Source: Oasisia sp. SBJ-2009
Taxonomy: Eukaryota > Annelida > Polychaeta > Sabellida > Siboglinidae
DNA length: 64,000 nt
NCBI GenBank assembly: GCA_964017155.1
Contig: OZ024861.1
Span: 19,065,213-19,129,212, forward strand
Direction of reading: 5' to 3'
Every line of letters starts with the position of its first letter. Position 1 is the first letter of the stretch. The notes below the pieces were generated by a model, which was not told the DNA's origin, searched no databases, and worked only from the letters and a program-made list of their open reading frames with translations. This document shows, piece by piece, positions 11,651-57,910 of the stretch. A program made the position numbers and the translations under genes.

Positions 11651-11657
11651 CTTTTAG

Positions 11658-11763
11658 ATGGCTTTGCCACCAGACCCAGACTTTGTGTTGCGAGGCAGTC
11701 AGTCAGCAGTGACCTGTCTCACCTATTTCTCCAACAGCCATCAATGCAACAGTCTTGTGTCAG
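11658..11763 (+). CDS. GNB1L: GNB1L coding exon 1
   Basis: The ATG follows the acceptor TCTGTCTTTTAG with no base between, so at least one 5' untranslated exon must lie upstream. It encodes 35 residues plus one base (MALPPDPDFVLRG to NSLVS) and ends TCAG|GTACAT. Just after the donor, degenerate copies of ACATAGACAACC and CAGTGTGACAGTC alternate to about 11935. Confidence 0.88.
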
Positions 11764-20700: not shown

Positions 20701-21081
20701 GAACTGAGTCGACTGCAATGCTGTACTGACCCTGTGATGAGCCTTGATTACAGCCATGAAGAAAACCTTGGTGTATCTGGCTCAGTTGATGCAGTATTGA
20801 GGACGTGGAGAATCAGTGAACAACAATGTATTGTCAGCATGGAAGACATCGAGATTAGAAACACAGGAGTGGGTTGTGTGAAGATCCGGGATGATGGCAA
20901 GTTGTTTGCCAGTGGTGGCTGGGACTCAAGGCTAAGACTGTTTAGTGTCAAGACTCTCAGACCCCTCGCAGTGTTACGTCAGCACACAGGGACCGTTCAA
21001 TGCCTGGCATTTGCTGCAGATAACACACTCGCTGCAGGGAGCAGTGATTGCACAATCAGTGTGTGGAGTATCTACAAATAA
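11658..21081 (+). CDS. GNB1L: GNB1L-like WD40 protein, three coding exons
   Basis: Joining 11658-11763, 15062-15247 and 20423-21081 gives one frame of about 316 residues; human GNB1L has 327. Both junctions are phase 1 with GT-AG borders. The product starts MALPPDPDFVLRGSQS, matching the remembered human start region PPDPQFVLRG. Later landmarks are SGNADGVLHTW, PMLLIGYESGNIALWD, GGWDSRLRLFSVKTLRPLAV and a final SSDCTISVWSIYK, all WD40-type strands ending in W-D or W-S. The human protein is a WD40-repeat propeller in the 22q11 deletion region, reported to act with the TTT co-chaperone in stabilising PIKK kinases. The first intron is dominated by a minisatellite and the second contains a THAP-derived TIR element. 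Identity rests on recall, not a search. Confidence 0.9.
11764..11984. repeat. Short degenerate tandem repeat behind the exon 1 donor
   Basis: The word ACATAGACAACC or ACATAGACATCC recurs at roughly 50- to 85-base spacing with CCTGTCAGTGTG between copies. The pattern starts within the donor itself (GTACATAGACAACC), another repeat beginning at a splice site, but copies are few and diverged. Confidence 0.55.
11985..15044. repeat. 30-bp minisatellite in GNB1L intron 1, about 102 copies
   Basis: The unit reads roughly GACCAAGTGACACGACCC then TCACTGTGGACA. The register is perfect: about 3.06 kb with no insertion or deletion, only substitutions (ACACAA/ACACGA/ACATGA, GAGGAC/GTGGAC/CTGGAT, AGCCTC/ACCCTC). 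Variants form blocks, with early GAGGACAGACC copies, middle TGGATAAACC copies and late ACAAGAGCCTC copies. Marked copies recur 17-19 units apart in the middle and 5 units apart near 14221 and 14371. Frames stay open on both strands because the unit is divisible by three. The array ends 17 bases before the exon 2 acceptor. Confidence 0.97.
15062..15247 (+). CDS. GNB1L: GNB1L coding exon 2
   Basis: The acceptor GTATGTTTTAG precedes it and the donor is CGGCAAG|GTTCAG. With one base from exon 1 it encodes G-NADGVLHTWCMRSHRPQ through WKNPGAGWIRQ, 61 full codons, covering the end of the first WD40 repeat and the second. The upstream frame, in register with this exon, stays open back through the whole minisatellite to 11998, so retention of the 3' part of the intron would not meet a stop. 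Confidence 0.88.
15600..16400. mobile_element. Dispersed repeat, 'TCTCAGGGCCTCC' family, copy 1
   Basis: Blocks CCAATGAACTTATGGCATC, then TCACATCACAGAAACTGCTG, then (after a gap) ATCTCAGGGCCTCCCC and CAATAACCCAGTAGATC with GGACAGTTGC recur at 24830-25160 and, in part, at 30990, 31768, 32540-32790, 38700-38930 and 52370-52480. None has a coding frame. This is an abundant non-autonomous family whose ends I could not define. Confidence 0.6.
16530..17300. mobile_element. Dispersed repeat, 'CACACAATTTGGCTGT' family, several adjacent copies
   Basis: The word series ACACTTTATTGATATC, CATTCACACAATTTGGCTG, GGTCATCTCATATGAATAACC and CAATTAGGTGATTA recurs at about 16540-16650, 17030-17105, 17205-17300, 19545-19690 and 31445-31690. 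The local clustering suggests either nested insertions or tandem duplication of one element. Confidence 0.6.
17450..18425. other. AT-rich intron sequence, no further feature seen
   Basis: Only AT-rich intronic sequence was recognised here; there is no open frame above background. Confidence 0.4.
18428..19291 (+). mobile_element. TIR DNA element carrying a broken THAP domain
   Basis: About 100-base inverted repeats bound the element. The left arm (18430-18533) reads AAAGGCAAA, AGTTAACTGTTTCATGG, CATACACCTAATAGAG, ATATACTCAATTTTTTAACG and GCGGTTTAC; the right arm (19185-19290) is its near-perfect reverse complement. Between them, ATG at 18784 opens MPYCSAYGCNNS, and 18889-18931 reads SKYSSLCSVHF, stop, EKCFE. 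These are the first cysteine pair and the C-x2-H pair of a THAP zinc finger, the DNA-binding domain of P-element/THAP9 transposases. Stops and frame changes make it a pseudogene. A perfect CRE octamer (TGACGTCA) lies inside near 19115. No clear target-site duplication was found. Confidence 0.75.
20423..21081 (+). CDS. GNB1L: GNB1L terminal coding exon
   Basis: The acceptor CTTTTTTGCAG precedes it. Completing the split codon gives DSFACTSLSFCAAVTFRLGG, so a start inside this exon is not needed. It runs 218 codons to TAA and carries most of the propeller: QPMLLIGYESGNIALWD, DPVMSLDYSHEENLG, SGSVDAVLRTWRIS, GVGCVKIRDDGKLFASGGWD, RLRLFSVKTLRPLAVL, HTGTVQCLAFAADNTLAAG and DCTISVWSIYK. AATAAA overlaps the stop codon (21077-21082), and another lies at about 21699. 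Confidence 0.92.
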
Positions 21082-22084: not shown

Positions 22085-22990
22085 TTACGCGAAACGAACG
22101 CGTGCGTGCTATTGACGACACTCCCAGGAAAGAACTAGCTGGATTACGTAGAGGATGAGGATCCACATACCAAATATTTACCATCCGCAACATCATCGAA
22201 CAGTGTTCAGAATGGCAAAGACAGCTATATATATACTTTATTGACGTTGAAAAGGCATTTGATAGCATACACATGAAAAGTCTATATAGCGAATATTGAA
22301 AGCATGCGGGATTCCGATCGAAATTGTCGATATCATTCGAAAGTTCTATTCAAACTTCACGTGCAGCATATGGTCTAAGTGATAAGTTGTTTTGAAGTGA
22401 AAACCGGAGTCTTCAACATTGTCATTGACTGGGTACTAGTTACGACTGTACCACAGAACACAAACCTTCGCCACTCTAGAAGACCTATATTTTGGTGATG
22501 ACCTTGCTCTCTTGTCGCACATTGAATTATCATATACAAGAAAAGACAACAAAGCTCAACACTTTCATCCAACAAACGTTGGCCTTAGAATTAGCCACAA
22601 GAAAACAAAAGTGATGACTGAGCATCCCAACTGCTTCGGGCCGTCTGAACTAACAAGTACTACCACCTTCACATACTTAGGTAGCGTCATTAGTCAGGAT
22701 ACAGGTGCAAGCATGGACATTCAGAGCACATTTGAATAAGGCTATAGCCGGTGTTTTCATGAGCATGAAGGCAGTATGGACATTTATATAGCTATAATCA
22801 GAGTTGTAATTAACTTAGTTTTTGCGTACCGTTCTTTATAGATCAGAGTGCTGGCGTATGATAGAACAGTATAAATAAATATGGAGGAAGCGGGACACAT
22901 TTGAGGCATCATCGAGAAATTGGCAAGGGATATAGATAAATGTGAAGGAACCTGTCGGTTACATGGCAGCCCAGGCGGAGCCGAGATTGA
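22085..22990 (+). mobile_element. LINE reverse-transcriptase relic
   Basis: Ordered reverse-transcriptase blocks are readable in changing frames: RKELAGLRRG, YQIFTIRNIIEQCSEWQRQ, FIDVEKAFDSIHMKSLY (22245-22290, the conserved DxEKAFDS strand), VALLS/LVMTLLS near 22500, ISHKKTKVMTEH at 22595, TYLGSVISQDTGASMDIQ (22670-22720) and RSECWRM near 22850. This order matches CR1/RTE-type non-LTR elements. Frameshifts and stops show it is dead. It lies between GNB1L and SIAE. Confidence 0.82.
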
Positions 22991-23739: not shown

Positions 23740-23973
23740 ATGACTGTGCAGGAGCACTGCAGCAGTGGGGACGCGTCCGAGTCGAAGACGAACTCTGACT
23801 CAACCATGGGCAGTGAAGGCACAGGTGAGAGGCCTGTGGAAGGAAACCAGAAGGAAAGGGAGGAGCCAGTGGCAATGAACAACATCACATCGATTGAGAT
23901 GGAGACTGGGAAGAAAGAGGATGTGGATGAGAGTGACAGTGACTGTGCTGCCGCAGAGACACAGCCATTGAAG
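23740..23973 (+). CDS. SIAE: SIAE coding exon 1 (acidic N-terminal region)
   Basis: The ATG is preceded by TGGCAGTGACA within an exon whose acceptor ends at 23702. An in-frame ATG further left (23692) would lie across that acceptor and is not used. The exon encodes 78 residues rich in E, D, S, K (MTVQEHCSSGDASE, NQKEREEPVAMNN, DVDESDSDCAAAETQPLK), with no fold visible. It ends in phase 0 at CCATTGAAG|GTTTGTG. Human SIAE has nothing like it. The link to exon 2 rests on phase match and shared acidic character. Confidence 0.7.
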
Positions 23974-25652: not shown

Positions 25653-28600
25653 AAATAACAGGTATTTTCTAAGCAATAGTACATATGCTTGAAAGTTGTA
25701 AGATATTTGTAGTTTCTATGTCTGTGTTTACTGGTGTGTTTGTGTAGGACAGGGGTGAGGAGGGAGGTGTGGAGGATCTATGTGTACTGGTGTGTTTGTT
25801 CAGGACAGGGATGGGGAGGAAGGTGTGGAGGATCTATGTGTACTGGTGTGTTTGTGTAGGACAGGGATGGGGAGGGAGGTGTGGAGGATCTATGTGTACT
25901 GGTGTGTTTGTTCAGGACAGGGATGGGGAGGAAGGTGTGGAGGATCTATGTGTACTGGTGTGTTTGTGCAGGACAGGGATGGGGAGGGAGGTGTGGAGGA
26001 TCTATGTGTACTGGTGTGTTTGTGCAGGACAGGGATGGGGAGGGAGGTGTGGAGGATCTATGTGTACTGGTGTGTTTGTTCAGGACAGGGATGGGGAGGA
26101 AGGTGTGGAGGATCTATGTGTACTGGTGTGTTTGTGCAGGACAGGGATGGGGAGGGAGGTGTGGAGGATCTATGTGTACTGGTGTGTTTGTGCAGGACAG
26201 GGATGGGGAGGGAGGTGTGGAGGATCTATGTGTACTGGTGTGTTTGTTCAGGACAGTGATGGGGAGGAAGGTGTGGAGGATCTATGTGTACTGGTGTGTT
26301 TGTTCAGGACAGGGATGGGGAGGGAGGTGTGGAGGATCTATATGTACTGGTGTGTTTGTGCAGGACAGTGATGGGGAGGAAGGTGTGGAGGATCTATGTG
26401 TACTGGTGTGTTTGTTCAGGACAGTGATGGGGAGGGAGGTGTGGAGGATCTATGTGTACTGGTGTGTTTGTGCAGGACAGTGATGGGGAGGGAGGTGTGG
26501 AGGATCTATGTGTACTGGTGTGTTTGTTCAGGACAGTGATGGGGAGGAAGGTGTGGAGGATCTATGTGTACTGGTGTGTTTGTTCAGGACAGGGATGGGG
26601 AGGGAGGTGTGGAGGATCTATGTGTACTGGTGTGTTTGTTCAGGACAGTGATGGGGAGGAAGGTGTGGAGGATCTATGTGTACTGGTGTGTTTGTTCAGG
26701 ACAGGGATGGGGAGGGAGGTGGGGAGGGAGGTGTGGAGGATCTATGTGTACTGGTGTGTTTGTTCAGGACAGGGATGGGGAGGGAGGTGTGGAGGATCTA
26801 TGTGTACTGGTGTGTTTGTGCAGGACAGGGATGGGGAGGGAGGTGTGGAGGATCTATGTGTACTGGTGTGTTTGTGCAGGACAGGGATGGGGAGGGAGGT
26901 GTGGAGGATCTATGTGTACTGGTGTGTTTGTGCAGGACAGGGATGGGGAGGAAGGTGTGGAGGATCTATGTGTACTGGTGTGTTTGTGCAGGATGGGGAG
27001 GGAGGTGTGGAGGATCTATGTGTACTGGTGTGTTTGTTCAGGACAGGGATGGGGAGGAAGGTGTGGAGGATCTATGTGTACTGGTGTGTTTGTGTAGGAC
27101 AGGGATGGGGAGGGAGGTGTGGAGGATCTATGTGTACTGGTGTGTTTGTGTAGGACAGGGATGGGGAGGGAGGTGTGGAGGATCTATGTGTACTGGTGTG
27201 TTTGTTCAGGACAGGGATGGGGAGGAAGGTGTGGAGGATCTATGTGTACTGGTGTGTTTGTGTAGGACAGGGATGGGGAGGAAGGTGTGGAGGATCTATG
27301 TGTACTGGTGTGTTTGTTCAGGACAGGGGTGGTGAGGGAGGTGTGGAGGATCTATGTGTACTGGTGTGTTTGTGTAGGACAGGGGTGGTGAGGGAGGTGT
27401 GGAGGATCTATGTGTACTGATGTGTTTGTGCAGGGCAGGGGTGGTGAGGGGGGTGTGGAGGATCTATGTGTACTGGTGTGTTTGTGTGGGATGGGGAGGG
27501 AGGTGTGGAGGATCTATGTGTACTGGTGTGTTTGTGCAGGACAGGGATGGGGAGGGAGGTGTGGAGGATCTATGTGTACTGGTGTGTTTGTGCAGGACAG
27601 GGATGGGGAGGGAGGTGTGGAGGATCTATGTGTACTGGTGTGTTTGTTCAGGACAGTGATGGGGAGGAAGGTGTGGAGGATCTATGTGTACTGGTGTGTT
27701 TGTTCAGGACAGGGATGGGGAGGGAGGTGTGGAGGATCTATATGTACTGGTGTGTTTGTGCAGGACAGTGATGGGGAGGAAGGTGTGGAGGATCTATGTG
27801 TACTGGTGTGTTTGTTCAGGACAGTGATGGGGAGGGAGGTGTGGAGGATCTATGTGTACTGGTGTGTTTGTGCAGGACAGTGATGGGGAGGGAGGTGTGG
27901 AGGATCTATGTGTACTGGTGTGTTTGTTCAGGACAGTGATGGGGAGGAAGGTGTGGAGGATCTATGTGTACTGGTGTGTTTGTTCAGGACAGGGATGGGG
28001 AGGGAGGTGGGGAGGGAGGTGTGGAGGATCTATGTGTACTGGTGTGTTTGTTCAGGACAGTGATGGGGAGGAAGGTGTGGAGGATCTATGTGTACTGGTG
28101 TGTTTGTTCAGGACAGGGATGGGGAGGGAGGTGGGGAGGGAGGTGTGGAGGATCTATGTGTACTGGTGTGTTTGTTCAGGACAGGGATGGGGAGGGAGGT
28201 GTGGAGGATCTATGTGTACTGGTGTGTTTGTGCAGGACAGGGATGGGGAGGGAGGTGTGGAGGATCTATGTGTACTGGTGTGTTTGTGCAGGACAGGGAT
28301 GGGGAGGGAGGTGTGGAGGATCTATGTGTACTGGTGTGTTTGTGCAGGACAGGGATGGGGAGGAAGGTGTGGAGGATCTATGTGTACTGGTGTGTTTGTG
28401 CAGGATGGGGAGGGAGGTGTGGAGGATCTATGTGTACTGGTGTGTTTGTTCAGGACAGGGATGGGGAGGAAGGTGTGGAGGATCTATGTGTACTGGTGTG
28501 TTTGTGTAGGACAGGGATGGGGAGGGAGGTGTGGAGGATCTATGTGTACTGGTGTGTTTGTGTAGGACAGGGATGGGGAGGGAGGTGTGGAGGATCTATG

Positions 28601-31600
28601 TGTACTGGTGTGTTTGTTCAGGACAGGGATGGGGAGGAAGGTGTGGAGGATCTATGTGTACTGGTGTGTTTGTGTAGGACAGGGATGGGGAGGAAGGTGT
28701 GGAGGATCTATGTGTACTGGTGTGTTTGTTCAGGACAGGGGTGGTGAGGGAGGTGTGGAGGATCTATGTGTACTGGTGTGTTTGTGTAGGACAGGGGTGG
28801 TGAGGGAGGTGTGGAGGATCTATGTGTACTGATGTGTTTGTGCAGGGCAGGGGTGGTGAGGGGGGTGTGGAGGATCTATGTGTACTGGTGTGTTTGTGTG
28901 GGATGGGGAGGGAGGTGTGGAGGATCTATGTGTACTGGTGTGTTTGTTCAGGACAGGGGTGAGGAGGGAGGTGTGGAGGATCTATGTGTACTGGTGTGTT
29001 TGTTCAGGACAGGGGTGAGGAGGGAGGTGTGGAGGATCTATGTGTACTGGTGTGTTTGTTCAGGACAGGGGTGAGGAGGGAGGTGTGGAGGATCTATGTG
29101 TACTGGTGTGTTTGTTCAGGACAGGGATGGGGAGGGAGGTGTGGAGGATCTATGTGTACTGGTGTGTTTGTTCAGGACAGGGATGGGGAGGGAGGTGTGG
29201 AGGATCTATGTGTACTGGTGTGTTTGTACGGGATGGGGAGGGAGGTGTGGAGGATCTATGTGTACTGGTGTGTTTGTACGGGATGGGGAGGGAGGTGTGG
29301 AGGATCTATGTGTACTGGTGTGTTTGTACGGGATGGGGAGGGAGGTGTGGAGGATCTATGTGTACTGGTGTGTTTGTGCAGGACAGGGATGGGGAGGAAG
29401 GTGTGGAGGATCTATGTGTACTGGTGTGTTTGTGCAGGACAGGGATGGGGAGGAAGGTGTGGAGGATCTATGTGTACTGGTGTGTTTGTGCAGGACAGGG
29501 ATGGGGAGGGAGGTGTGGAGGATCTATGGGTACTGGTGTGTTTGTGTAGGACAGGGATGGGGAGGAAGGTGTGGAGGATCTATGTGTACTGGTGTGTTTG
29601 TTCAGGACTGGGATGAGGAGGGAGGTGTGGAGGATCTATGTGTACTGGTGTGTTTGTTCAGGACTGGGATGAGGAGGGAGGTGTGGAGGATCTATGTGTA
29701 CTGGTGTGTTTGTTCAGGACTGGGATGAGGAGGGAGGTGTGGAGGATCTATGTGTACTGGTGTGTTTGTTCAGGACTGGGATGAGGAGGGAGGTGTGGAG
29801 GATCTATGTGTACTGGTGTGTTTGTTCAGGACTGGGATGAGGAGGGAGGTGTGGAGGATCTATGTGTACTGGTGTGTTTGTTCAGGACAGGGGTGAGGAG
29901 GGAGGTGTGGAGGATCTATGTTTACTGGTGTGTTTGTGCAGGACAGGGATGGGGAGGGAGGTGTGGAGGATCTATGTATACTGGTGTGTTTGTGTAGGAC
30001 AGGGATGGGGAGGGAGGTGTGGAGGATCTATGTGTACTGGTGTGTTTGTGTAGGACAGGGATGGGGAGGGAGGTGTGGAGGTTCTATGTGTACTGGTGTG
30101 TTTGTGCAGGACAGGGATGGGGAGGGAGGTGTGGAGGATCTATGTATACTGGTGTGTTTGTGCAGGACAGGGATGGGGAGAGAGGTGTGGAGGATCTATG
30201 TGTACTGGTGTGTTTGTGCAGGACAGGGATGGGGAGGGAGGTGTGGAGGATCTATGTATACTGGTGTGTTTGTGCAGGACAGGGATGGGGAGAGAGGTGT
30301 GGAGGATCTATGTGTACTGGTGTGTTTGTGCAGGACAGGGATGAGGAGGGAGGTGTGGAGGATCTATGTATACTGATGTGTTTGTGTAGGACAGGGATGG
30401 GGAGGGAGGTGTGGAGGATCTATGTGTACTGGTGTGTTTGTGTAGGACAGGGATGGGGAGGGAGATGTGGAGGATCTATGTGTACTGATGTGTTTGTGTA
30501 GGACAGGGATGAGGAGGGAGGTGTGGAGGACCTTGACTGTGATGACAGCCCTGATGTCTTCACCAAGGACTGTGACAGTACGGCGGGCAAGAAAGGCCTG
30601 TGGGACAAGCGCTGTATGACGGTGGGCGTCGTTGTGCTCGCCCTCATTGTGTGTGGAGCCATTGCTGCTATACTCATGCATCGGTTCACAGGTAAGGGGC
30701 CACCCGTTTATGATGGCAACATCTGGGATGTGTGTTTATATATAATGTGGTGTGTTTTCTTTGCTTGATATCATGTTTCTCAGGCCTTTGTGCTGAAGAT
30801 CCAGTGTTTATGGCATCACCTCTGTATCAACACTTTTATGTTACTTTTTCTCTAATTTTGTACACATATATCTTAGGGTATACAAAACTATGCATACGTA
30901 GTACACAACATAGTATACAATACAGACATATCTTAGGGTATACATACGTAATACACAATACATTTGTAGTAGATTGGATGTTTCAATGTCTACCTCAGGG
31001 CCTCCCGCTCCCAGAAAGCTACATGTCCACATTTTGTTTGTGTCTGTCTGGACTGGCTTGGAGACAATACTTTTGTATTCAAGACTGTGTCCCTGAACCC
31101 AACTCTTCAGGCTAGGTGGCCTGACATGGATAATGGTTAATTTATAATTTACGGTATCTGTTTATTGGAGTGACACTAATCTGCCAAACACTGAAGGTGA
31201 AGTGGTCTGCCTGGATAGCACAGTTACCAGTAGTTGGTATTCCATCTCATGGTCTGTGGCGCACGGTGACAGCTGCTTCTGCAGATATTAATTAAGCTAT
31301 ATCTTCAAAACTATTGATTTTCTGTCAATACCAGTTGAGTTTATTTGATGCTTATTTACTTATCTTTAAAATGGCGACAGGTTAGACTGGTGTATTGTCA
31401 CCTGTAGATGAAAAACATATAAGAATTATTCTAAACAACTATAAAATGAAATATCACACACTTTATTGATATCAGTTGCATTCTGATCACTGGGCTGAGT
31501 GGAGTTGAACTCCATCTTGACTAAAACCACTAATGACGAGTCCTCTCACTACCAGGGTACATTCACACAATTTGGCTGTTTCTCTTGTCATCTCGTATGA

Positions 31601-34600
31601 ATAACCAGAGAAAATGTCAATTAGATGATTACGGTGAAGAGACTAGCAGTGACTATGATTCACCAAAACACAGTCCATTCATAATTATAAAATCACTATG
31701 CAATAGTCCAAAGGATTTAGATCCCTTGGCCCACTGTTTAGTGCTTTGGTCTGTAGGACCATACTCGTCCATTGAACTTATGGCATCTTTTTGTGTTCGC
31801 TGTCCACCGTAAAAAAAACAAGTTATTATATAGCGCAGTATCCAATCCTCAGGATTGCTAAAAGGTGTTTTACATTTTATTCCCTGACAGACCTGGTCAA
31901 TTGAACACCATCTCGGCTTCTCTGGGAAGCTTTCAGCCATGTAACAATTAATTTGCGAAGACTGCTTGTGCATAAATATCCACCACTGTCTACAGCCATG
32001 GACTGATTTATACAGCTAAGTGAACTGGAGCAATATAGAGTGAAAGAACTTGCCCAAGGTTTTGCACAGCAGCACAGAGTTTGAACCCTGTGTCTTATCA
32101 TACAGCATATTGACTCAGTTGAAAAGTGTCCCAGGGCCACTATTCTATGTAGAATAATGACCCGAGGTCACTATTCTATGTAGAATAATGACCCCTGGGT
32201 CACTTTTCCATTGATTTTCAGTTGTAGAAGAATTACCCACCCTATAGAAAAATGACTCATCCCATATTTTTAGGGATATTTGAAATAATGGTTTTGATTA
32301 TAATGTAAAATTACAGCACATAACCAAATATTTTACTTCAAAAGACAATATCTAGTCTTAGAGTTGGGCCACAAAATAATGATGAATTTTTTTATTAATT
32401 TCTTTATTGGACCTTGTAGATTTATTATACGAGCATCACAGTGAAATGTCTATTTGGCAATAATAAAAAGTTTGTTTTGTGTGGCTGTAGGGGTGGGGGG
32501 TCATGTTTATATGGTATAGTACATTCACCTGTGACTCCTTCTTAGGGTATTGTCACAATGCACAACGAATGTAAATTTGATTGACACATATTTAAACCTC
32601 CTAGGGTTCTTTAGGGCTTAACACTGGTACATTTTAACTTTTCCTATTTTATTCAAAAACATTTCTGAAACTTTCCTCTAATTTTGCATCAAGATATCTG
32701 AGGGTATTTTCATTGTACACTATAAATGTGTACTTCATCAGTCTTTTTAATGACATCTCAGGGCCTCCCAAAAAAGCAAGCAGTTAAAATGTTGCCTGAA
32801 ATAAACCAATTAAAGTATATAAAGATTGTTTCTAGAAAAGCACCCTGGGTAATCATGTCAGATATTACATTCCAAGAATATAGAATCAGGCTGAATCAAG
32901 TATTGATATCATATTACCACAGCATATACATTGAAAGTGTGTTAAGAAAGCAATCGCCAACAGACACCACAGTTAGGAAATTATTCAAATCATGGCAATA
33001 TGTGAGCTCTGGTAGAAGCACACATTACATGTAATGCAGCCTGAAACGTGAACAGATGACACACATACATGCACACACTGACATACGTGCGCCACTGCCA
33101 CATTCCCTGGTTTAAATTGGCCAGGCGGCGTTTTGCTGCGGTAATGCATAAGGAAATGTGATGGAAGATGGTAAAGCCAGGAAAAAATGCATGCCAAACA
33201 TTAGTTGAAATAAGTTGAAATATGATATCCCTGAAGCTGAGCACCAGGCAGCAATGTGGCTTCAGAAGGTGAAAATAAAACTTACACAGGCGGCACAGTG
33301 ACAGCTGACTGGGGTGGTAGGCAGAGTAACATGGACACACATCTGTGGCAGTGACAGCTGACTGGGGTGGTAGGCAGAGTAACATGGACACACATCTGTG
33401 GCAGTGACAGCTGACTGGGGTGGTAGGCAGAGTAACATGAGCAAACATCTGTGACAGTGACAGCTGACTGGGGTGGTAGGCAGAGTAACATGAGCACACA
33501 TCTGTGGCAGTTACAAGTTGAATGTAGTAGCCAGAAACATGGAGAATCTACAACTTAAATATAATTGTTTTGCCGAAGCCCAAGTGAGTCAAATATCAGT
33601 TACACAAAACATTGAAACAACAGGAACAATTGTCACAGCCATTCCAAAAGTTACAAATGAGTTCATTCAGAACTTTTTGTAGTACCATTTTTTCTTGACT
33701 TTGGATATAATATTATATATATATATTATGTATTTTGCACTACATAAAACATTCCTGATGTATCTGACAAAACATACTACAGAAATGCATGGATAAAGCG
33801 TGATTAGCTAAAATTTGATAAACATTTAATATTTGAAACTGCTCAGTGACTAATGTATTGGACTCGATCAAGATAATCCAATATGAAATCGTGTGTAGCT
33901 GTGTCGAACCTTGGGCTAGTTCATTCGCTCTACATGGCTTCAGTTGACTGACCTATACGAATGAGTACCTGGCTATGGACAGTGGTTTCTGGGAAGATTC
34001 CAGCCACGCTGCAATTCCTGCGCAAAGACTATTCGTATACAAGTATCTACCACTGTTTGTAGCCAGGTACTTACTCACTCAGCTGAGTGAATCAGTTCAG
34101 TATGTATTCACATTCAAATTAACCTGTTTTGTAGAGAAGTGCACATTTGAGTTTGTCATGTTGTGTTTGTAATCAGCGCGGGACTACCATGAGCTGCAGT
34201 TTGCGTCCTACTACACGGACCACATGGTGCTACAGCGGGCGCCCAGTAGGGCCGTGTTGTGGGGGTACAGCTCCATCACTGACGACAACATCACCATCAC
34301 ACTTCACCTGAAGGGTGACAGTGTCAACATGGTCTACAAGACTTCAGTTCATGCTACAGGTTTGTTACTGTCACTTGATGACATTTCAAGTCTCATTGTA
34401 TTATATGAAATTAAAATGTCTGCAAAATGAATCAACACCAGATAATGCAGTGAAGTAGAATCCTACTAAAATCTGCCATCTGACTCTTTAGAATTTTTTA
34501 CTATCTGAGTAGCAGAACTCAGTGTTGTTCTCTTGCATCATGCAAAAATGCATAGTGACATAAGTTATAATTTGTGACTTTATCTTGTCTTGTTTGGATT

Positions 34601-37600
34601 GTGGTTGAATATAATTAGTGTTGATACTGTGGAATTGGTATAGGTTGTGACTTGGGAATTAACTTGCATGGTTGTGAATTAATTGTGTAAAGTTGGCATG
34701 GAGTATGAATGTATTGTGTCAAGTTAGCTTGGACTATGAATTGATTGTGTCAAGTTAGCATGGGCTATGAATTGATTGTGTCAAGTTAGCATGGGCTATG
34801 AATTGATTGTGTCAAGTTAGCATGGGCTATGAATTGATTGTGTCAAGTTAGCATAGACTATGAATTGATTGTGTCAAGTTAGCATGGGCTATGAATTGAT
34901 TGTGTCAAGTTAGCATGAGCTATAATTTCCCTATGAATTGATTGGGCTAAGTTGGCATAGACTATGAATTTATTGTAGTAACCATTTCAATGCTACAGCC
35001 CTGTGATGACTGAATAATGCATTCCCAGTGACTTTATCAACAAGAACACCATATTATATTCTGAAAGTTTAATACTCAATAAGTAATGCAATTAGGATAT
35101 ATTTTAATTTCCTAATAGTAAACCTGGCAAATAAATGATTCGCAATGAGCATGAAGACCAAGCACACTGCCACTGGTAGTTGCAGGTTTGCTTCTGCCGG
35201 TAATGTTTATAAAGCCTTTTATCACCAGCAATTGTTTACATATTACGATCGTTACTGTCTATATACAACAAAATATATCACTAATATTATATAAATATTC
35301 TTTCTAAGGAGTTACTTGGCAACTTGCCGTTGCTGACTCGTCAACAAAATTTGTAATCAATGACATAAAAAATACACAAATAAAAAATCAATGGGCATGA
35401 TTAGCAGTACAGTAGTCACCCTCTTCAGCGGACACTCCTGTATCCAAGCAAGTGTCCCTACATTGAGGGTGTTCCCCTCATCAGGGGGACAGACATTCTG
35501 GAAAGGGGGAAAGGTGGGGCAGTGGGGGGCTTTGGCTATGGGTACGAAAAATGCATGGTGTGCATAAAGAAAACTGGAACGTTGCCATTGGGAAGACACA
35601 GAAAACAGGCGAGACAGAAATAAAACTAATTATCCACACCCAATTAGGTAAATTAGGCAGAATATGTTTGTTTTGGTTTCATATGAAGTTTACCTTTTTT
35701 CGCAGGTCCGCTGCCCACTTCCATGGGTTATCCCCTCATCGGGGGAAATTTACATGGCAAAACAATCCGTACATTGTCCAATAACCAAGAGGGTCCGCTC
35801 CAATGCCATTGCTAAATTGCTAAGGCATTAGACTTAAAGGCGATATATAACATGTGCCTTGCCTTCACATAGCTGATAATTGTATGTAAAAATGCTTTGA
35901 ATAGCTGACAATTATATATTATTATTATTATCATCAATGCTGTTGTTGCGGCCTGTGGCATTCAAGTGTCACACACTGTAGCCACAGTAGCAGACTGAAA
36001 CTGAAATGAATTATATGAATTATGAACATATGAATTAATTGTGTCGTCAGTTGGCATGGTCTGTAGAAGTGGTAGTGTCAAGGTGACATGGGTTGTGAAT
36101 TAATTGTGTCGTCAGTTGGCATGGTCTGTAGAAGTGGTAGTGTCAAGGTGACATGGGTTGTGAATTAATTGTGTCGTCAGTTGGCATGGTCTGTAGAAGT
36201 GGTAGTGTCAAGGTGACATGGGTTGTGAATTAATTGTGTCGTCAGTTGGCATGGTCTGTAGAAGTGGTTGTGTCAAGGTGACATGGGTTGTGAATTAATT
36301 GTGTCGTCAGTTGGCATGGTCTGTAGAAGTGGTAGTGTCAAGGTGACATGGGTTGTGAATTAATTGTGTCGTCAGTTGGCATGGTCTGTAGAAGTGGTAG
36401 TGTCAAGGTGACATGGGTTGTGAATTAATTGTGTCGTCAGTTGGCATGGTCTGTAGAAGTGGTAGTGTCAAGGTGACATGGGTTGTGCATTAATTGTGTC
36501 GTCAGTTGGCATGGTCTGTAGAAGTGGTAGTGTCAAGGTGACATGGGTTGTGAATTAATTGTGTCGTCAGTTGGCATGGTCTGTAGAAGTGGTTGTGTCA
36601 AGGTGACATGGGTTGTGAATTAATTGTGTCGTCAGTTGGCATGGTCTGTAGAAGTGGTTGTGTCAAGGTGACATGGGTTGTGAATTAATTGTGTCGTCAG
36701 TTGGCATGGTCTGTAGAAGTGGTTGTGTCAAGGTGACATGGGTTGTGAATTAATTGTGTCGTCAGTTGGCATGGTCTGTAGAAGTGGTAGTGTCAAGGTG
36801 ACATGGGTTGTGAATTAATTGTGTCGTCAGTTGGCATGGTCTGTAGAAGTGGTTGTGTCAAGGTGACATGGGTTGTGAATTAATTGTGTCAGGTTGGTCA
36901 TGTGGTGTGAACTGATCCTATCCTAGAGTATATCTGACCACTGACCAGTGAGTGAGCACTGACCAGTGAGTGACCACTGAGTGACCACTGACTAAAGTGG
37001 ATGGGATCTGTTGCAGATGGCAACCCCGTGTGGCGCGTTGTCCTTGATCCGGTCAGCGACCCAGGGCCATTTGTCATCACTGTCACCATAGACCACCAAC
37101 CAGGCAGCACACTGCAGCTGACAGATGTCTTGTTTGGTGACGTATGGATGTGTGCTGGACAGTCCAACATGCAGTACCCAGTCAGCATGGTAAGTGTCCA
37201 GACAGTCCAACATGCAGTACCCAGTCAGCATGGTAAGTGTCCAGACAGTCCAACATGTAGTACCCAGTCAGCATGGTAAGTGTCCAGACAGTCCAACATG
37301 TAGTACCCAGTCAGCATGGTAAGTGTCCAGACAGTCCAACATGCAGTACCCAGTCAGCATGGTAAGTGTCCAGACAGTCCAACATGTAGTACCCAGTCAG
37401 CATGGTAAGTGTCCAGACAGTCCAACATGCAGTACCCAGTCAGCATGGTAAGTGTCCAGACAGTCCAACATGCATTACCCAGTCAGCATGGTAAGTGTCC
37501 AGACAGTCCAACATGCAGTACCCAGTCAGCATGGTAAGTGTCCAGACAGTCCAACATGTAGTACCCAGTCAGCATGGTAAGTGTCCAGACAGTCCAACAT

Positions 37601-40600
37601 GCAGTACCCAGTCAGCATGGTAAGTGTCCAGACAGTCCAACATGCAGTACCCAGTCAGCATGGTAAGTGTCCAGACAGTCCAACATGCAGTACCCAGTCA
37701 GCATGGTAAGTGTCCAGACAGTCCAACATGCATTACCCAGTCAGCATGGTAAGTGTCCATACAGTCCAACATGCAGTACCCAGTCAGCATGGTAAGTGTC
37801 CAGACAGTCCAACACGCAGTACCCAGTCAGCATGGTAAGTGTCCAGACAGTCCAACACGCAGTACCCAATCAGCATGGTAAGTGTCCAGACAGTCCAACA
37901 CGCAGTACCCAATCAGCATGGTAAGTGTCCAGACAGTCCAACACGCAGTACCCAGTCAGCATGGTAAGTGTCCAGACAGTCCAACACGCAGTACCCAGTC
38001 AGCATGGTAAGTGTCCAGACAGTCCAGTATGCGGTACCCAGTCAGCATGGTAAGTGTCCAGACAGTCCAACACGCAGTACCCAGTCAGCATGGTAAGTGT
38101 CCAGACAGTCCAGTATGCGGTACCCAGTCAGCATGGTAAGTGTCCAGACAGTCCAGTATGCGGTACCCAGTGTAGTTGTTCTCCTTGTTGTTGCTTAAGT
38201 ATACCATATTACATGTGTGCTACATTGGACATATTTGTGTCAATTGAAGAATACATGTGTTTGTTACTATACTAAAATGTCAGAATATTGTCCAGTTTAA
38301 ATATCCATTTATTGGTGCAGATACAAATGCTGTTGCTGTAGCATGCCTGAACTAACTATTTAGGTTGTGTCTAACTGTTCTTGCAGTTGTCCAACAGCAG
38401 TGAGGAGCTGGCCAATTTGGAGCAGTTCTCCACAGTGCGCCTGTTTGTCGTCGGCTCACACAAGTCTCCCTTCAGTAACTATGACTTGCAGAAGATACAG
38501 CTGCCTTGGTCAATACCTAGCAAGGGTAGGTGACAGCATATTCATTATGTTGAACAAACTAAGCCAAACAAACTAATGGCTTCATTGCCTGGCACAGCTC
38601 CACTGCCACAGTGTTCAGGTTAATTGTATAGAATGCAACCCATGGAGATCATCTTCATCATCATACATAGCAAACAGATATTTTATTCAGCTTCAGAAAG
38701 AAACGTATTTAGGGTTCTATACTGTCACAATGGTGGTACAATGCACAAGAAATGTACATTTGATTAACACATTTTTAGCCTCCTAGGATATTCTAGGACT
38801 TTAAGTTTGTAGCTTTCCTCTCATTTTGCATAGACATATGTAAGGACATTTTCAGTGTACACAAGAAACCTATAGTTCACTACTCTTTTTCAAGATTATC
38901 TCAGGGCCCCCCAAAAAGCGAAATCTTAAAATTATGCATGTTTCTGCCTGGGTTTTCGTTGATATAAGAAAATGACATATCTGTCTAGGGCAACTAGAGG
39001 TGGCTGTCACCACAGCACCAGTGACATGTTTAGGACGGACAGTGAACATCTTGTAGTGTTTGTTGTTTCTTTGACAGAGACACTATCTGGAGTGACAGTG
39101 AACATCTTGTAGTGTTTGTTGTTTCTTTGACAGAGACACTATCGGGAGTGACAGTGAACATCTTGTAGTGTTTGTTGTTTCTTTGACAGAGACACTAACT
39201 GGAGTGACAGTGAACATCTTGTAGTGTTTGTTGTTTCTTTGACAGAGACACTATCGGGAGTGACAGTGAACATCTTGTAGTGTTTGTTGTTTCTTTGACA
39301 GAGACACTATCTGGAGTGACAGTGAACATCTTGTAGTGTTTGTTGTTTCTTTGACAGAGACACTATCTGGAGTGACAGTGAACATCTTGTAGTATATGTT
39401 GTTTCTTCGACAGAGACACTATCGGGACTGACAGTGAACGTGTTGTAGTGTTTATTTGCCAGAGACACTGATGGGGAGCTATGTGTTTGTTTGACAGAGA
39501 CACTGATGGGGAGCTATGTGTTTGTTTGACAGAGACACTGATGGGGAGCTATGTGTTTGTTTGACAGAGACACTGATGGGGAGCTATGTGTTTGTTTGAC
39601 AGAGACACTGATGGGGAGCTATGTGTTTGTTTGACAGAGACACTGATGGGGAGCTATGTGTTTGTTTGACAGAGACACTGATGGGGAGCTATGTGTTTGT
39701 TTGACAGAGACACTGATGGGGAGCTATGTGTTTGTTTGACAGAGACACTGATGGGGAGCTATGTGCCCCAGGGTCAGTTCAGTTCCCACTTCTCCGCCCT
39801 GTGCTGGCTGTATGGCAAGCAACTGCAGCAGAGACTACACTACCCTATTGGACTAATAGAGGCGACCTACAGCTCCAGCAACATTGATGAGTGGGCTCCT
39901 CTCAATGTGCTGGAAGAATGTGGCGTGGCTGCTGGAAGGTAACTACTCTTGTTGTCCAACATTCTACAGAGTTACCTGTCTGTGTGTGTATGTTTTGGTC
40001 ACTAATGTATGACAGATTTATATTATAGTATGTCATTCATCAAGATAGTCTTGCTCAGCACATTATATCCAGGCTAACCACTATACGCTTGGACTGACAA
40101 TCATCACTACAACCATGTCATGTTTAATGATTCTTTTTTAGACAAACAACATATTTTGGTTTAACCAATAACATATTTTGGCATTTATGTCTGTGGACAG
40201 AGGTCTTTCAATCATGATGTAGTTAGCAATAACAATACTCATATATTGAAACTAGATGTCTCAATATATGAGTTGCTTTTCTTTTACCTACACAGTAATG
40301 AATACCCTTAGTAATACATCCTGAAAATGAAAAGTACAGTGTATTTGAAAAAGTAATTGGAATACTTTCCAATGTATTTGTTTTTAAATACATTTGTATT
40401 TATACTTAATTGTATTTGTATCGCTCAAGAGTATAAATTTGTATTTAAATATATTCGTGAAAATGTTCATCAAGTTTGCAGTATATTATTCAAAACAAAT
40501 TTCGTAATTACTATTGCTAGTTGTGTAATTATGAAATTTGTTTCGAATATTTAAATATATTTCAATATAAAATTATTTTACCCCATGTAACACAGAATAA

Positions 40601-43600
40601 TTGTGGATTTAGACAGGTTTACAGTTTGCACTTAATTAATATAACATAATAGGCAGGGATTGACCAGCTCAGACCCAGTCAGGAGTCTAGATATAGGAAG
40701 TTAGGAACCATGACCAGTCATTCACACCATACTGACAGACCTTGTAACATTATAAAGCAACATGTTAGGGCCGTTGTAGCTGTAGGCTGTAGGGACACCT
40801 CAACTACAGTGTCTACAGCTTGCAGAGAAGGTGATGTTATCCAGGTGTTTTTGGCAAGTGATGTCTTCTGCTTCACCAAGGACTTAGCCAGGAGTGACTC
40901 AAACTTGGGTGTCATCATTGTCATGCCCCACTCTTCTTGTATGCGGTTTGCCTGTCAGATGATGTTAGTTCTTTCGATGCTTTGGTTGTTAGTGACCACT
41001 CAGTCACGCAGTGGTTTGTTATACTGAATGTAGTTAGATGCTTTGGTTGTTAGTGACCACTCAGTCACGCAGTGGTTTGTTATGTTGAATGTAGTTAGAT
41101 GCTTTGGTTGTTAGTGACCACTCAGTCAAGCAGTGGTTTGTTATGTTGAATGTAGTTAGATGCTTTGGTTGTTAGTGACCACTCAGTCAAGCAGTGGTTT
41201 GTTATACTGAATGTAGTTAGATGCTTTGGTTGTTAGTGACCATCAGTCAAGCAGTGGTGTGTTATGTTGAATGTAGTTGATGTCCCTGTGTTTCAGTACG
41301 TCTGCCGTGTGGAATGCCATGGTGAGTCCTCTCCTCCACCTCTCCCTCTACGGTGTCATCTGGTACCAAGGTGAGTTACACAGCCCAACCAAACACCTAC
41401 CAGGTACTATGCTTCTACTTTGACAAACTTTACCCAGTATATATGTGTTTCCCAGTTTCATAGTTATATCTGAATTAGCATGAGTTAGATAATGTTCACA
41501 ACTACCACAGTACAGACATGGTGAACATGTAAGATTGTAGTAGCTGAGACAGTGAAGTGCCTCACTATTACAAGTGCAGTTTTCTATAGAAACACACACA
41601 CACTGGTGGATTAATCGCCTAGTGTTTGCATTAGTTAATTTGATTTGAAACCAGTGTCAGAATATAATGGTGCATTTTCAATATAATATCAGAAATGTTA
41701 TTTATAAAATATATTTAGTATCACAACTGACAGTTTCTGTTGAAAATCGTAGTTTAATAATTTACTATAGCAAACTAATTACACAGGTGAATTTGCATAT
41801 AATATAATCTATGTTAGTAATTAAAAATATATGTAAACAAAGCAAGCAAAACAAATTATTAAAGATTGTGAATTCCACTATATTTCTGTAAGCCGAGGAT
41901 TAGTTTTAGGAAGTTGTCTTTTTAACCTTACAAGGAACATGAACTGAATTGCTCTCATGTGGGATATTCCTGTTGTAGGAGAATCTGATGCTCTTGCATT
42001 GTCTCGCAACTACAACTGTACCTTTGTGAAGATGGTGACGTCGTGGCGACAGAAGCTGTACGATGGCACCAATGGAGCGACAGATCTCACCTTCCCCTTC
42101 GGCTTCGTTCAGGTGAGACTGTCAGGGCAACCCACTAGTTATCACTTCCCAACCTGTGGTGTTGCAGGGATACACACCTAAGATCATTTGAAGCCAATAA
42201 AGAATATCACAAAGTCGTTTACATTAAAAAGTGTGTTGGATGCCCAGATTCTATATTTTAGGATCAGTTCATTCTCATTTTTGTGAGGTAGCGGGTAGTT
42301 TGATATCACAAGAGCTTCAACTAAGGTAATCATCCAATCACATTAACTTGTTTCTTAGATCTGTGTGTACCAAAATCATAGTCTAGTATTAAATATTTCT
42401 GAAAATATTTTAATTAGAAGTAAAATGCATGTATTTCACTGGGACCATTAAAAATATTAATTGAAATTGCTTACTTCATGTGATACACAAACATTCATAC
42501 AAGCACTGAAAGCATACATGCATGGCCAGAAAGCGAGAGAGCCAGACAGGGCTGACTGTGGGTGTGTGTGCAGCTGGGTGCCAACCGACCAGGAGACCAC
42601 CTCACATATGGCTACACAGACATCCGCTGGCGACAGACGGCCAACTACGGCTTCGTTCCCAATCCACACCTTCAGAAAGTCTTCATGGCCGTTGCAATGG
42701 ACCTACCTGATTTAAACTCAACCCACAGAAGGCAAGTAATTGTCCACACACAGAAGGCAAGTAATTGTCCACACACAGAAGGCAAGTAATTGTCCACACA
42801 CAGAAGGCAAGTAATTGTCCACACACAGAAGGCAAGTAATTGTCCACACACAGAAGGCAAGTAATTGTCCACACACAGAAGGCAAGTAATTGTCCACACA
42901 CAGAAGGCAAGTAATTGTCCACACACAGAAGGCAAGTAATTGTCCACACACAGAAGGCAAGTAATTGTCCACACACAGAAGGCAAGTAATTGTCCACACA
43001 CAGAAGGCAAGTAATTGTCCACACACAGAAGGCAAGTAATTGTCCACACACAGAAGGCAAGTAATTGTCCACACACAGAAGCTGAGATTCTTTTAGCAAT
43101 GAGCAATGATAACAATATAAGCTGTATTTAAAGATCAAAGTAAGCTGTAGAGATGACAATAAATTACTTTGAGTTTTACCTTAACTCATATAAATTCTTA
43201 CATTCTCACATTCTTAAAGGAAATGAAAACAAGGCATTTGTTTTCCATGTATACATAAAAAGAATGTTTGTGTGCATTTAACAACATTGAACAAAGAAAT
43301 AAGAATACAATGTGTGTATTGTAGTATAAATTCGGTTTTAAACCCATCTGTGTAGCGATTCCTGTGGAACCTTGGTGATTATATAATGTATTGTACGTGT
43401 GAGATGACACCCACTGGCATAGAACGCACCCTATCTACATATTCAGAGCATGTTTACAAGGATAGCTTTTGGGTCGAAATGAGTGTTGGCATAAATTAGT
43501 GTATGGTATTCTGATGTAATATAAACACTACCCTAGTCATCATATGGAACAAATATTTATCTTACGGTTCCATATGAATAAAAAAATTGGATCGAGACGT

Positions 43601-46600
43601 TTTGCGTAGGCCAGGCTCATGAGCCTAGGGGTCATTTTCAGAGTATTTGTATCAATTGCAACCCACTAAAGATAATCCACACAAGGACACATACATAACA
43701 AACATATTATATTTAATTTTATATTATGTAATCCATTAATCGCACTAGTATGTTGATGGAGGAGTTATAAATGTAACATAACACTTTAAATTCGTGTAAC
43801 GGAATCCCAGTTGTTACCTTAGCTCACAGTTGGCAGATCCTACATTAGGTGTCTTCACATTTACAATCAGAAGTACACTGGCCAGTTCTAACCTGACACA
43901 AAACCATTGATTTTTTATACATTTTATGTTTGTGTTATCACAAAATAATTATAAACTGAATCATTTTAAAACAATAAATAGTGTACTGACTGTGAGATTA
44001 ATGGTCAAACAGGGGTCCTTCCGATTGTAAAAGCCAACACACCTAATGAATATGTCAATGAATTGAGCTATGGCAACAACCGGGATTCCACTCCCAGATT
44101 TAAAATGTTAGGTTACATTTACAAGTCCATCCATACCCCCTTTTGTTACATGCAGCATACACCCTTTGTTACATGCAACATACACCCTTTGTTTCATACA
44201 GCATACCCCCTTTGTTACATGCAGCATACACCCTTTGTTTCATACAGCATACCCCCTTTGTTTCATACAGCATACCCCCTTTGTAACGAACAGCATATAC
44301 CATTTGCTACATAGAGCATATACCCTTTGTTACCTTTGTTACATGCGACATACACCCTTTGTTTCATACAGCATACACCCTTTGTTTCATACAGCATACA
44401 CCCTTTGTTTCATACAGCATACCCCCTTTGTAACGAACAGCATATACCATTTGCTACATAGAGCATATACCCTTTGTTACCTTTGTTACATGCGACATAC
44501 ATCCTTTGTTACATACAACATACATCCTTTGTTACATACAACATACACCCTTTGTTACATGCTACATACACCCTTTGTTACATGCTACATACATCCTTTG
44601 TTACATGCAACATACATCCTTTGTTACATGCAACATACACCCTTTGTTACATGCAACATACATCCTTTGTTACATGCAACATACACCCTTTGTTACATGC
44701 AACATACACCCTTTGTTACATGCAACATACACCCTTTGTTACATGCAACATACATCCTTTGTTACATGCAACATACATCCTTTGTTACATGCAACATACA
44801 TCCTTTGTTACATGCAACATACATCCTTTGTTACATACAACATACATCCTTTGTTACATACAACATACATCCTTTGTTACATGCAACATACACCCTTTGT
44901 TACGTACAGCATACACCCATTGTTATGTACAGCATACACCCGTTGTTATGTACAACATTTTACACCCTTTGTTATGTACAACATACACCCTTTGTTATGT
45001 ACCGTATACACCCTTGTTACATGCAGCATACACCCATTGCTACATTCATTATATGATTCATGAAACATACACCCTTTGTTACGTGCAGCATACACCCATT
45101 GCTACATTCATTATATGATTCATGATACATACACCCTTTGTTACGTGCAGCATACACCCATTGCTACATTCATTATATGATTCATGAAACATACACCCTT
45201 TGTTATGTGCAGCATACACCCATTGCTACATTCATTATATGATTCATGAAACATACACCCTTTGTTACGTGCAGCATACACCCATTGCTACATTCATTAT
45301 ATGATTCATGAAACATACACCCTTTGTTACGTACAGCATACACCCACTGCTACATTCATTATATGATTCATGAAACATACACCCTTTGTTATGTGCAGCA
45401 TACACCCATTGCTACATTCATTATATGATTCATGAAACATACACCCTTTGTTACGTACAGCATACACCCTCGGTTCAAGAGAGTTGTTGCCTCCAGACTG
45501 GTGAGAGGGGCCCTGTCGGTGGCATATCGACAGAGAAACATAACGTTTGCTGGACCAACACCAACCAAGTATGCCGCATTTAAGCACAACCACACATTGC
45601 TTCTTCACCTCGACTCGACACAGGTAGATGTCCGTGACAAGAACGGATTTGAGGTAAGAAAAATATCAGTAGAAAGAAGCTTTTGTATAGTACATTAGTG
45701 CTATATGCTGGTATTCCCTGACTATTCCCAGACTAGAGGCTGGACAACCTCTGTTATCTTTGTATTCCCTGACTAGAGGCTGGACAACCTCTGTTATCTT
45801 TGTATTCCCCGACTAGAGGCTGGACAACCTCTGTTATCTTTCTATTCCCCGACTAGAGGCTGGACAACCTCTGTTATCTTTGTATTCCCCGACTAGAGGC
45901 TGGACAACCTCTGTTATCTTTGTATTCCCCGACTAGAGGCTGGACAACCTCTGTTAACTTTGTATTCCCCGACTAGAGGTTGGACAAACTCTGTTATCTT
46001 TGTATTCCCCGACTAGAGGTTGGACAACCTCTGTTATCTTTGTATTCCCCGACTAGAGGCTGGACAACCTCTGTTATCTCTGTATTCCCCGACTAGAGGT
46101 TGGACAACCTCTGTTAACTTTGTATTCCCCGACTAGAGGTTGGACAACCTCTGTTATCTTTGTATTCCCCGACTAGAGGTTGGACAACCTCTGTTAACTT
46201 TGTATTCCCCGACTAGAGGTTGGACAACCTCTGTTAACTTTGTATTCCCCGACTAGAGGCTGGACAACCTCTGTTATCTCTGTATTCCCCGACTAGAGGC
46301 TGGACAACCTCTGTTAACTTTGTATTCCCCGACTAGAGGTTGGACAACCTCTGTTAACTTTGTATTCCCCGACTAGAGGCTGGACAACCTCTGTTATCTC
46401 TGTATTCCCCGACTAGAGGTTGGACAACCTCTGTTAACTTTGTATTCCCCGACTAGAGGTTGGACAACCTCTGTTAACTTTGTATTCCCCGACTAGAGGC
46501 TGGACAACCTCTGTTATCTCTGTATTCCCCGACTAGAGGTTGGACAACCTCTGTTAACTTTGTATTCCCCGACTAGAGGTTGGACAACCTCTGTTATCTT

Positions 46601-49494: not shown

Positions 49495-49927
49495 AATATT
49501 GGTATAGTGAATATATTGTTCATGGCTCCAAGAATGGTTTATTGTAATATAATTAACTTACTTTGGAGCTTAAAGTCGAAGCTGAGTACGACGTTTCGAC
49601 CCGTCATCTATGGGCCTTGTTCACGTACTGGTGTCACGTGTGTTGCCTCAGATTTCGGTAGGATAATTTGATTGTAGATGGCAGGCATATGGTATCCCTT
49701 ATCTTTGTTCATGGTAGGGGCTCTCTGTCTGATGTATATGGCCTCAGAGAGATCAGGGATACCATCTGCCTACCATCTACAATCAAATTATCCCACCGAA
49801 ATCTGAGGCAATACACGTGACACCAATACGTGAACAAGGCCCATAGATGACGGGTCGAAACGTCGTTCTCAGCTTCGACTTTAAGCTCCAAAGTAAGTTA
49901 ATTATATTACAATAATATTGGTATAGT
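49495..49927. mobile_element. Fold-back element with about 165-base inverted arms
   Basis: The left arm 49541-49711 (ATTGTAATATAATTAACTT, GAGCTTAAAGTCGAAGC, ACGTTTCGACCCGTCATC, TAGATGGCAGG) is the reverse complement of the right arm 49750-49913, with few mismatches and a loop of about 45 bases. The direct repeat AATATTGGTATAGT at 49495-49508 and 49914-49927 brackets the structure and could be a 14-base target duplication. No open frame is present, so it would be non-autonomous. Confidence 0.85.
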
Positions 49928-54010: not shown

Positions 54011-54269
54011 CTTCCCACATCTGCCCTTTCACAACAATTGTCATCATTCAAATAGGATTAAGTTAGGATTTCTCCACTTCTGTCGCTGGCTGCAGCATAA
54101 GAGTTGACAGAACAATGAAAATGTCATTATTCTCGATGTGCTAAGACATCATGTCTTATGGCTATTAAGTATGACATTGATTAAATGATCATTAAGGAAA
54201 AAAGCTAAAACATCATCAATGTTCCAGATGCAGGTCACAAGCAGGTCACTGGGGCTGTGAATCAGGATC

Positions 54270-57200: not shown

Positions 57201-57910
57201 CTGTAGACCCTTGCTGGCCCACAAGGATACTACCTGTAGACCCCTGGCCTACAAGGATGCTACCTGTAGACCCCTGCTGGCCCACAAGGATGCTACCTAT
57301 AGACCCCTGGCCCACAACGATGCTACCTATAGACCCTTGCTGGCCCACAAGGATGCTACCTATAGACCTCTGCTCCCCACAAAAATGCTACATATAGACC
57401 CCTGGCCCACAAGGATGCTACCTATAGACCCCTGGCCCACAAGGATGCTACCTGTAGACCCCTGGCCCACAAGGATGCTACCTATAAACCCCTGCTGGCC
57501 CACAAGGATGCTACCTATAGACCCTTGCTGGCCCACAAGGATGCTACGTATAGACCCCTGCTGGCCCACAAGGATGCTACCTATAGACCCCTGCTGGCCC
57601 ACAGGGATGCTATCTATAGACCCCTGCTGGCACACAGGGATGCTACCTATAAACCCCTGCTGGCCCACAAGGATGCTACCTATAGACCCTTGCTGGCCCA
57701 CAAGGATGCTACGTATAGACCCCTGCTGCCCACAAGGATGCTACCTATAGACCCAATGGTACACAAGGATGGTATCTATAGACCCAATGGTACACAAGGA
57801 TGCTACCTATAGACCCAATGGTACACAAGGATGCTACCTATAGACCCAATGGTACACAAGGATGCTACCTATAGACCCAATGGTACACAAGGATGGTATC
57901 TATAGAGGCC
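54270..57910. repeat. 33-bp minisatellite, about 110 copies, with higher-order structure
   Basis: The unit is CTACCTATAGACCCCTGCTG, GCCCACAAGGATG; shorter units lack CTG or CTGCTG. Because 33 is divisible by three, both strands carry long open frames with an 11-residue period (plus MLPIDPCWPTR, minus GSIGSILVGQQ). A block with TCTATAGACTTCTGGTCCAC, CCAATGGACCCATGGCCCAT and AGCCGCTGCTGG occurs at 55387, 56221 and 56825, giving offsets of about 834 and 604 bases. The right edge switches to a CAATGGTACACAAGGATG variant. Confidence 0.96.

Follow-up and report, generated by a model that had tools for sequence, protein, structure and literature searches.

Probable mirage-type minisatellites span splice junctions of an SIAE-like gene in the siboglinid annelid Oasisia

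Mirage minisatellites, tandem repeats that cross exon-intron borders, are known from amphioxus, where they have been described for Adh3, the globin genes BflGb6 and BflGb9, troponin C and PGBD5 (PMC3087553, PMC3902484; here and below, statements about cited papers refer to the portions of them that were available). Units measure 10-72 base pairs (bp) in Adh3 and 150-160 bp in the globins, and in the globins splice signals are present in many copies, not all (PMC3087553). Here we describe arrays of this kind in a window of 64,000 bases (0 N, GC content 42.5%) from Oasisia sp. SBJ-2009 (assembly GCA_964017155.1, contig OZ024861.1, positions 19,065,213 to 19,129,212), where five of them occupy splice junctions of a gene similar to SIAE (sialate O-acetylesterase) and a sixth lies in the neighbouring GNB1L-like gene. 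The preliminary description of the locus had pointed to border-spanning minisatellites of amphioxus Adh, and that class is indeed the published one. Our best reading, which we hold with considerable confidence, is that the Oasisia arrays are minisatellites of the mirage type, spliced through the copy nearest the exon while the other copies are removed as intron. Positions are counted from the first base of the window, and all features given as genes or arrays are on the forward (+) strand.

As in amphioxus (PMC3087553, PMC3902484), the repeats run across exon-intron borders at donors as well as acceptors, and many copies carry splice signals. All six arrays are tandem repeats that span a boundary, splice signals recur in the copies of all five arrays of the SIAE-like gene, and the unit sizes, from 23 to 62 bp, lie within the published range. 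Splicing in amphioxus appeared undisturbed where it was examined (PMC3087553, PMC3902484); here the protein alignments are consistent with such splicing. Unlike the amphioxus cases, these arrays belong to an annelid, number six in two adjacent genes and reach 86 copies. Internal tandem repeats in human genes of segmental duplications likewise place variable repeats at exon-intron boundaries, but in that case paralogs come with transcript evidence of altered introns, whereas here a single model keeps the ancestral protein (PMC2812944). Intron gain by tandem duplication also involves a duplication that copies splice signals (PMC4974935); in contrast, no new intron is inferred here, and the arrays sit within existing introns and exon edges. 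Among annelids, minisatellites are known in intron 1 of earthworm metallothionein, and the available portions of that paper do not describe junction-crossing arrays (PMC12783039), whereas the arrays reported here cross junctions. We found no report of mirage minisatellites in annelids in the open-licence literature searched, and the word minisatellite has 0 occurrences in the available portions of two tubeworm genome papers (PMC9921365, PMC8789280).

The SIAE-like gene has a coding span of 23740-48002 and 11 coding exons, at 23740-23973, 30502-30691, 34177-34359, 37017-37189, 38387-38525 and 39743-39938 (exons 1-6) and at 41297-41370, 41979-42112, 42574-42731, 45461-45653 and 47685-48002 (exons 7-11). 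The borders were placed by eye and then checked by script. The exons join in phase into 663 residues with 0 stops, bearing out the preliminary proposal of an SIAE-like gene with these junctions. The protein matches the Pfam family SASA (PF03629) at 44.3 bits against a cut-off of 24.8, and this domain together with full-length homology identifies it as SIAE. Among the matches listed, the closest protein is the SIAE of Ridgeia piscesae (P0001), a vent tubeworm and fellow siboglinid annelid, with 94% identity over residues 130-663, and amphioxus SIAE proteins are 40% identical. The DNA is accordingly that of a vestimentiferan annelid close to Ridgeia, and an amphioxus origin is rejected. A 305-amino-acid piece searched at E <= 1e-70 found no high-identity tubeworm protein among the best 120 of its 226 matches, which are 40-49% identical. 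The homolog set used below (n=205) consists of the best 120 of 1381 matches plus 85 more from the list for that piece (best 120 of 226). DNA of relatives was sought in viral and prokaryote contigs, where none was confirmed.

Five arrays cross junctions of this gene, as the preliminary description had it (56, 43, 35, 25 and 23/62 bp), and Tandem Repeats Finder (TRF) detected all of them. At the exon 2 acceptor, a 56-bp unit (29 exonic and 27 intronic bases) is repeated in 86 copies over 25721-30533. The AG is in register in 76 of the 86 copies and absent from register in the other ten; with a less strict pattern, 81 acceptor sites are recognised. At the exon 4 donor, a 43-bp unit (32 exonic, 11 intronic) forms about 23.6 copies over 37144-38171; of the 24 copies counted, 23 contain GTAAGT and the other is incomplete. 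The exon 6 acceptor lies in a compound array at 39019-39765, made of a 56-bp part (39019-39456) and a 35-bp part (39448-39765; 23 exonic and 12 intronic bases per unit), and AG is present in 9/9 copies of the 35-bp unit. The exon 9 donor is covered by 14.3 identical copies of a 25-bp unit (8 exonic, 17 intronic) at 42718-43081, all 14 of 14 with a GC donor, GAAG|GCAAGT. Finally, a compound 23/62-bp array at 44132-45475 includes the exon 10 acceptor; the 23-bp unit is contained within the 62-bp unit (9 exonic, 53 intronic), and AG occurs in 7/7 copies of the latter. Thus the unit of each array includes an exon edge with its splice site, and most copies keep the site.

Comparison of copies shows how these arrays relate to the exons that they border. 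In the exon 4 array, copies differ more from the exon copy, which codes for the GQSNM segment, the farther they lie from it (Spearman -0.63, p = 0.0014, 23 copies). Among 70 full-length 56-mers of the exon 2 array, divergence per site is 0.034 in the exon-derived part and 0.030 in the intron-derived part, as expected of silent copies. At exon 6, the 56-bp and the 35-bp arrays each include the acceptor and the start of the exon, and the 35-bp array aligns with the 56-bp array just upstream at 26 of 29 bases plus one gap at the exon border (score 38, where the highest of 300 shuffles was 22). The arrays had been called unrelated in sequence, which does not hold for this pair, as the exon 6 border is common to both. 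Separately, a block of about 1.2 kilobases within the exon 2 array (26596-27764) recurs 1,412 bases on, at 28008-29176, with 99% identity and an exact run of 940 bases. On the exon 7 side, a 61-bp array at 40973-41282 ends 15 bases upstream of the first exon base and does not span the junction; extension across the acceptor was rejected, the likeness past the array end scoring 13 against a shuffle maximum of 23.

We then asked what protein would follow from each of 137 alternative sites (80 at exon 2, 22 at exon 4, 14 at exon 6, 13 at exon 9 and 8 at exon 10, the count there being limited to upstream sites that match the recent unit). Sites were varied one at a time, exon 9 with exon 10 being the sole pair of arrays combined. 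None of the 137 kept the full open reading frame (ORF), and of the exon 9 by exon 10 pairs only the canonical one did (1 of 280). Of the sites tried, the full protein comes only from the copy touching the exon body. The earlier claim that a single copy keeps the frame therefore needs rewording: only the exon-proximal copy yields the full protein, while 44 of the 137 sites keep the frame by length and all 44 introduce a stop. That units of this kind hold a stop in one frame or another is unsurprising, and we read the result as a consequence and not as evidence of selection. For each of the six arrays, the exon is shortest with the copy that we take to be used, a choice that would fit exon definition.

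Homologous proteins are consistent with use of the exon-proximal copy at conserved junctions. No indel is seen at the exon 4/5 junction in 204 of 205 homologs, at exon 5/6 in 169 of 198, or at exon 9/10 in 204 of 205, the exception being Ridgeia P0001. That protein has 18 extra residues between the equivalents of exons 9 and 10. They read as if a second copy of the 25-bp donor unit, and then roughly 29 bases from the exon 10 array, had been translated, which suggests that both arrays are present in Ridgeia. These residues may reflect either real splicing or a misprediction; in lancelet PGBD5, repeat copies were comparably annotated as exon (PMC3902484). A tandem-repeat scan flagged 4 of the 205 homolog proteins. 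The SIAE model of Branchiostoma belcheri (P0016) has a 48-residue segment bearing GQSNM in tandem, its copies ending near the exon 4/5 position, which may be a mirage of that very junction. A SIAE paralog model of Lamellibrachia satsuma (P0034) shows by eye a long repeat rich in lysine, arginine and glycine near the exon 5/6 position.

Taken as mirage minisatellites, the arrays would have started as small tandem duplications across an exon edge and grown by slippage or unequal exchange. An array would be tolerated because splicing uses the exon-proximal copy, the choice expected under exon definition since it gives the shortest exon, and the remaining copies leave with the intron; mis-spliced RNA would meet a premature stop and be degraded. 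In a last stage the array would decay over time. Stages of such turnover are seen in the uniform array at exon 9 (14 identical copies), in the 56-bp and 35-bp arrays nested at exon 6 and in a decayed array, with 72% matches, in the neighbouring gene.

This neighbour, a GNB1L-like gene upstream of the SIAE-like gene (coding span 11658-21081), has three coding exons at 11658-11763, 15062-15247 and 20423-21081 that encode 316 amino acids with no internal stop. Exons 1 and 3 are supported by tblastn with sea-cucumber GNB1L proteins, and exon 2 is based on the reading frame and full-length protein alignment. At the donor of the first coding exon, relaxed TRF finds a degenerate 40-bp array of 3.1 copies (11741-11862), and self-alignment at this junction scores 43 versus a maximum of 25 in 200 shuffles. 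The GT of the second copy would shift the frame by 40 bases and meet a stop, and later copies, judged by eye, are without GT. This is an aged border array and a sixth case, in a gene outside the original finding. Most of intron 1 consists of a 30-bp array of 102 copies (11984-15038) that does not span a junction; the exon 2 acceptor was rejected as a further case, the array ending at 15038, 24 bases upstream of the first exon base at 15062. TTTTAG directly precedes the ATG (11652-11663), and a noncoding exon upstream of it is likely; this junction was left out of the counts.

Whether arrays favour exon borders was addressed by placement, each array being collapsed to one unit (relaxed TRF, score >= 100, period >= 20, compounds merged by hand). 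Over both genes, 6 of 14 arrays span a junction, whereas uniform placement predicts 0.87 (P = 1e-4). Taken by itself, the SIAE-like gene has 5 of 12 versus 0.95 (P = 0.0015), or 5 of 10 versus 0.80 with strict TRF (P = 6e-4), and for the GNB1L-like gene 1 of 2 versus 0.05 (P = 0.05). Because this pattern was the reason for choosing the window, P values of the SIAE-like gene are post hoc, and none of the values given here is a clean probability. Counted by junction, an array crosses 5 of 20 in the SIAE-like gene and 6 of 24 over both genes, a high density, which the preliminary description had thought exceptional. Borders of the GNB1L-like gene are 1-2 bases off in the junction scan and the relaxed-TRF table; the placement test uses the corrected ones.

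One explanation is that there is no real excess: minisatellites would be common in this genome and prefer to arise in GC-rich sequence, and five borders in one gene would be happenstance. We give this a substantial minority chance. Units have a mean GC of 0.47 both at borders (n=6) and elsewhere (n=12), and border windows are richer in GC than introns (0.477 versus 0.361). With one way of GC weighting, the SIAE-like gene alone has 5 arrays against 2.45 expected (P = 0.08). Over both genes, however, the two ways of weighting raise the expectation only to 1.5-2.0 against the 6 seen (P = 0.002-0.008), and the sixth case was supplied by a neighbouring gene. GC content thus explains between about a tenth and a fifth of the two-gene excess, and more than a third of that in the SIAE-like gene taken by itself. 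The claim that five such cases exceed chance thus stands under uniform placement and is weaker after GC weighting. Probably the border excess is partly compositional, with GC-rich units, GC-rich exon edges and exonic sequence that can be multiplied harmlessly there.

A second explanation holds that a process specific to junctions, for instance replication stalling at exon edges or mispairing of short repeats in splice signals, seeds tandem duplication at splice sites in this lineage. Besides the placement values, uniform and GC-weighted, two observations favour it: two successive border arrays were seemingly born at exon 6, and a duplicate of neighbouring sequence crosses 6 of the 24 junctions, compared with 7 hits in 800 tests when 400 random intron points outside arrays were examined in both directions. 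This background is not strictly comparable, since arrays were excluded from it and 60 shuffles were used instead of the 200 at junctions. The numbers, though, are small (two genes with 14 arrays), selection of the window followed the pattern and the GC-weighted result for the SIAE-like gene alone is P = 0.08, and we regard this process as rather unlikely. The preliminary description had left a choice between tolerance and seeding. Tolerance is well supported, as the alternatives tried break the ORF and the homologs fit; by itself it does not explain the excess over purely intronic arrays. Seeding is unproven, and a junction-seeking mechanism is possible.

Several points weigh against the mirage reading as we have put it, in addition to the GC-weighted result for the SIAE-like gene alone. 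The exon 2 array shows no polarity from the exon (Spearman -0.12, p = 0.28). Its AG is invariant across the 70 full-length 56-mers, which could reflect selection on the sites, though the ten copies without AG in register are set against this. The Ridgeia model uses array-like sequence at exon 9/10, possibly by real splicing. At the exon 1/2 junction only 5 homologs align, 2 of them without an indel, so that support for exon 2 comes mostly from the reading frame and from Ridgeia. The homolog comparison was made by local alignment, which may skip long inserts, and it left the tandem-repeat proteins P0016 and P0034 unflagged at the junctions.

That the rows of splice sites are functional, tuning splicing or diversifying the protein, is very improbable: the in-frame array-like residues of the Ridgeia model and the well-kept splice dinucleotides of young arrays speak for it, but none of the alternative sites keeps the ORF, homogenisation could explain the kept dinucleotides, and in the old GNB1L-like array the second GT would lead to a frameshift and a stop, and later copies by eye have none.

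Elsewhere in the window, none of ten open frames matched Pfam at E <= 0.01. One at 22440-22736 resembles by eye a reverse-transcriptase remnant (YFGDDLALLSH) and has no Pfam match. Also judged by eye, an inverted repeat with the motif GACGGGTCGAAACGTCG at 49570-49900 is reminiscent of a small mobile element. A 33-bp array of about 113 copies spans 54264-57906, with no gene identified around it, and degenerate repeats rich in TTGGGCCAA lie at 58766-59230.

In the literature found, mirages come from lancelets, and related repeats are known in duplicated human genes; dense mirages in an annelid suggest that the process is not confined to lancelets. Genome annotation may misread them, as the Ridgeia model may show. 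Identical splice sites, such as the 14 of 14 at exon 9, raise the question of how the spliceosome selects one of them when local sequence is uninformative, and arrays of such sites are raw material for intron gain. A bolder proposal, which we consider improbable, is that vestimentiferan genomes harbour a junction-directed process that repeatedly creates border-spanning minisatellites, such that, across the genome, a sizeable share of splice sites are rows of duplicates among which splicing must choose by position only. If true, this process would allow exon definition to be tested in a natural setting and would be a lasting supply of new introns.

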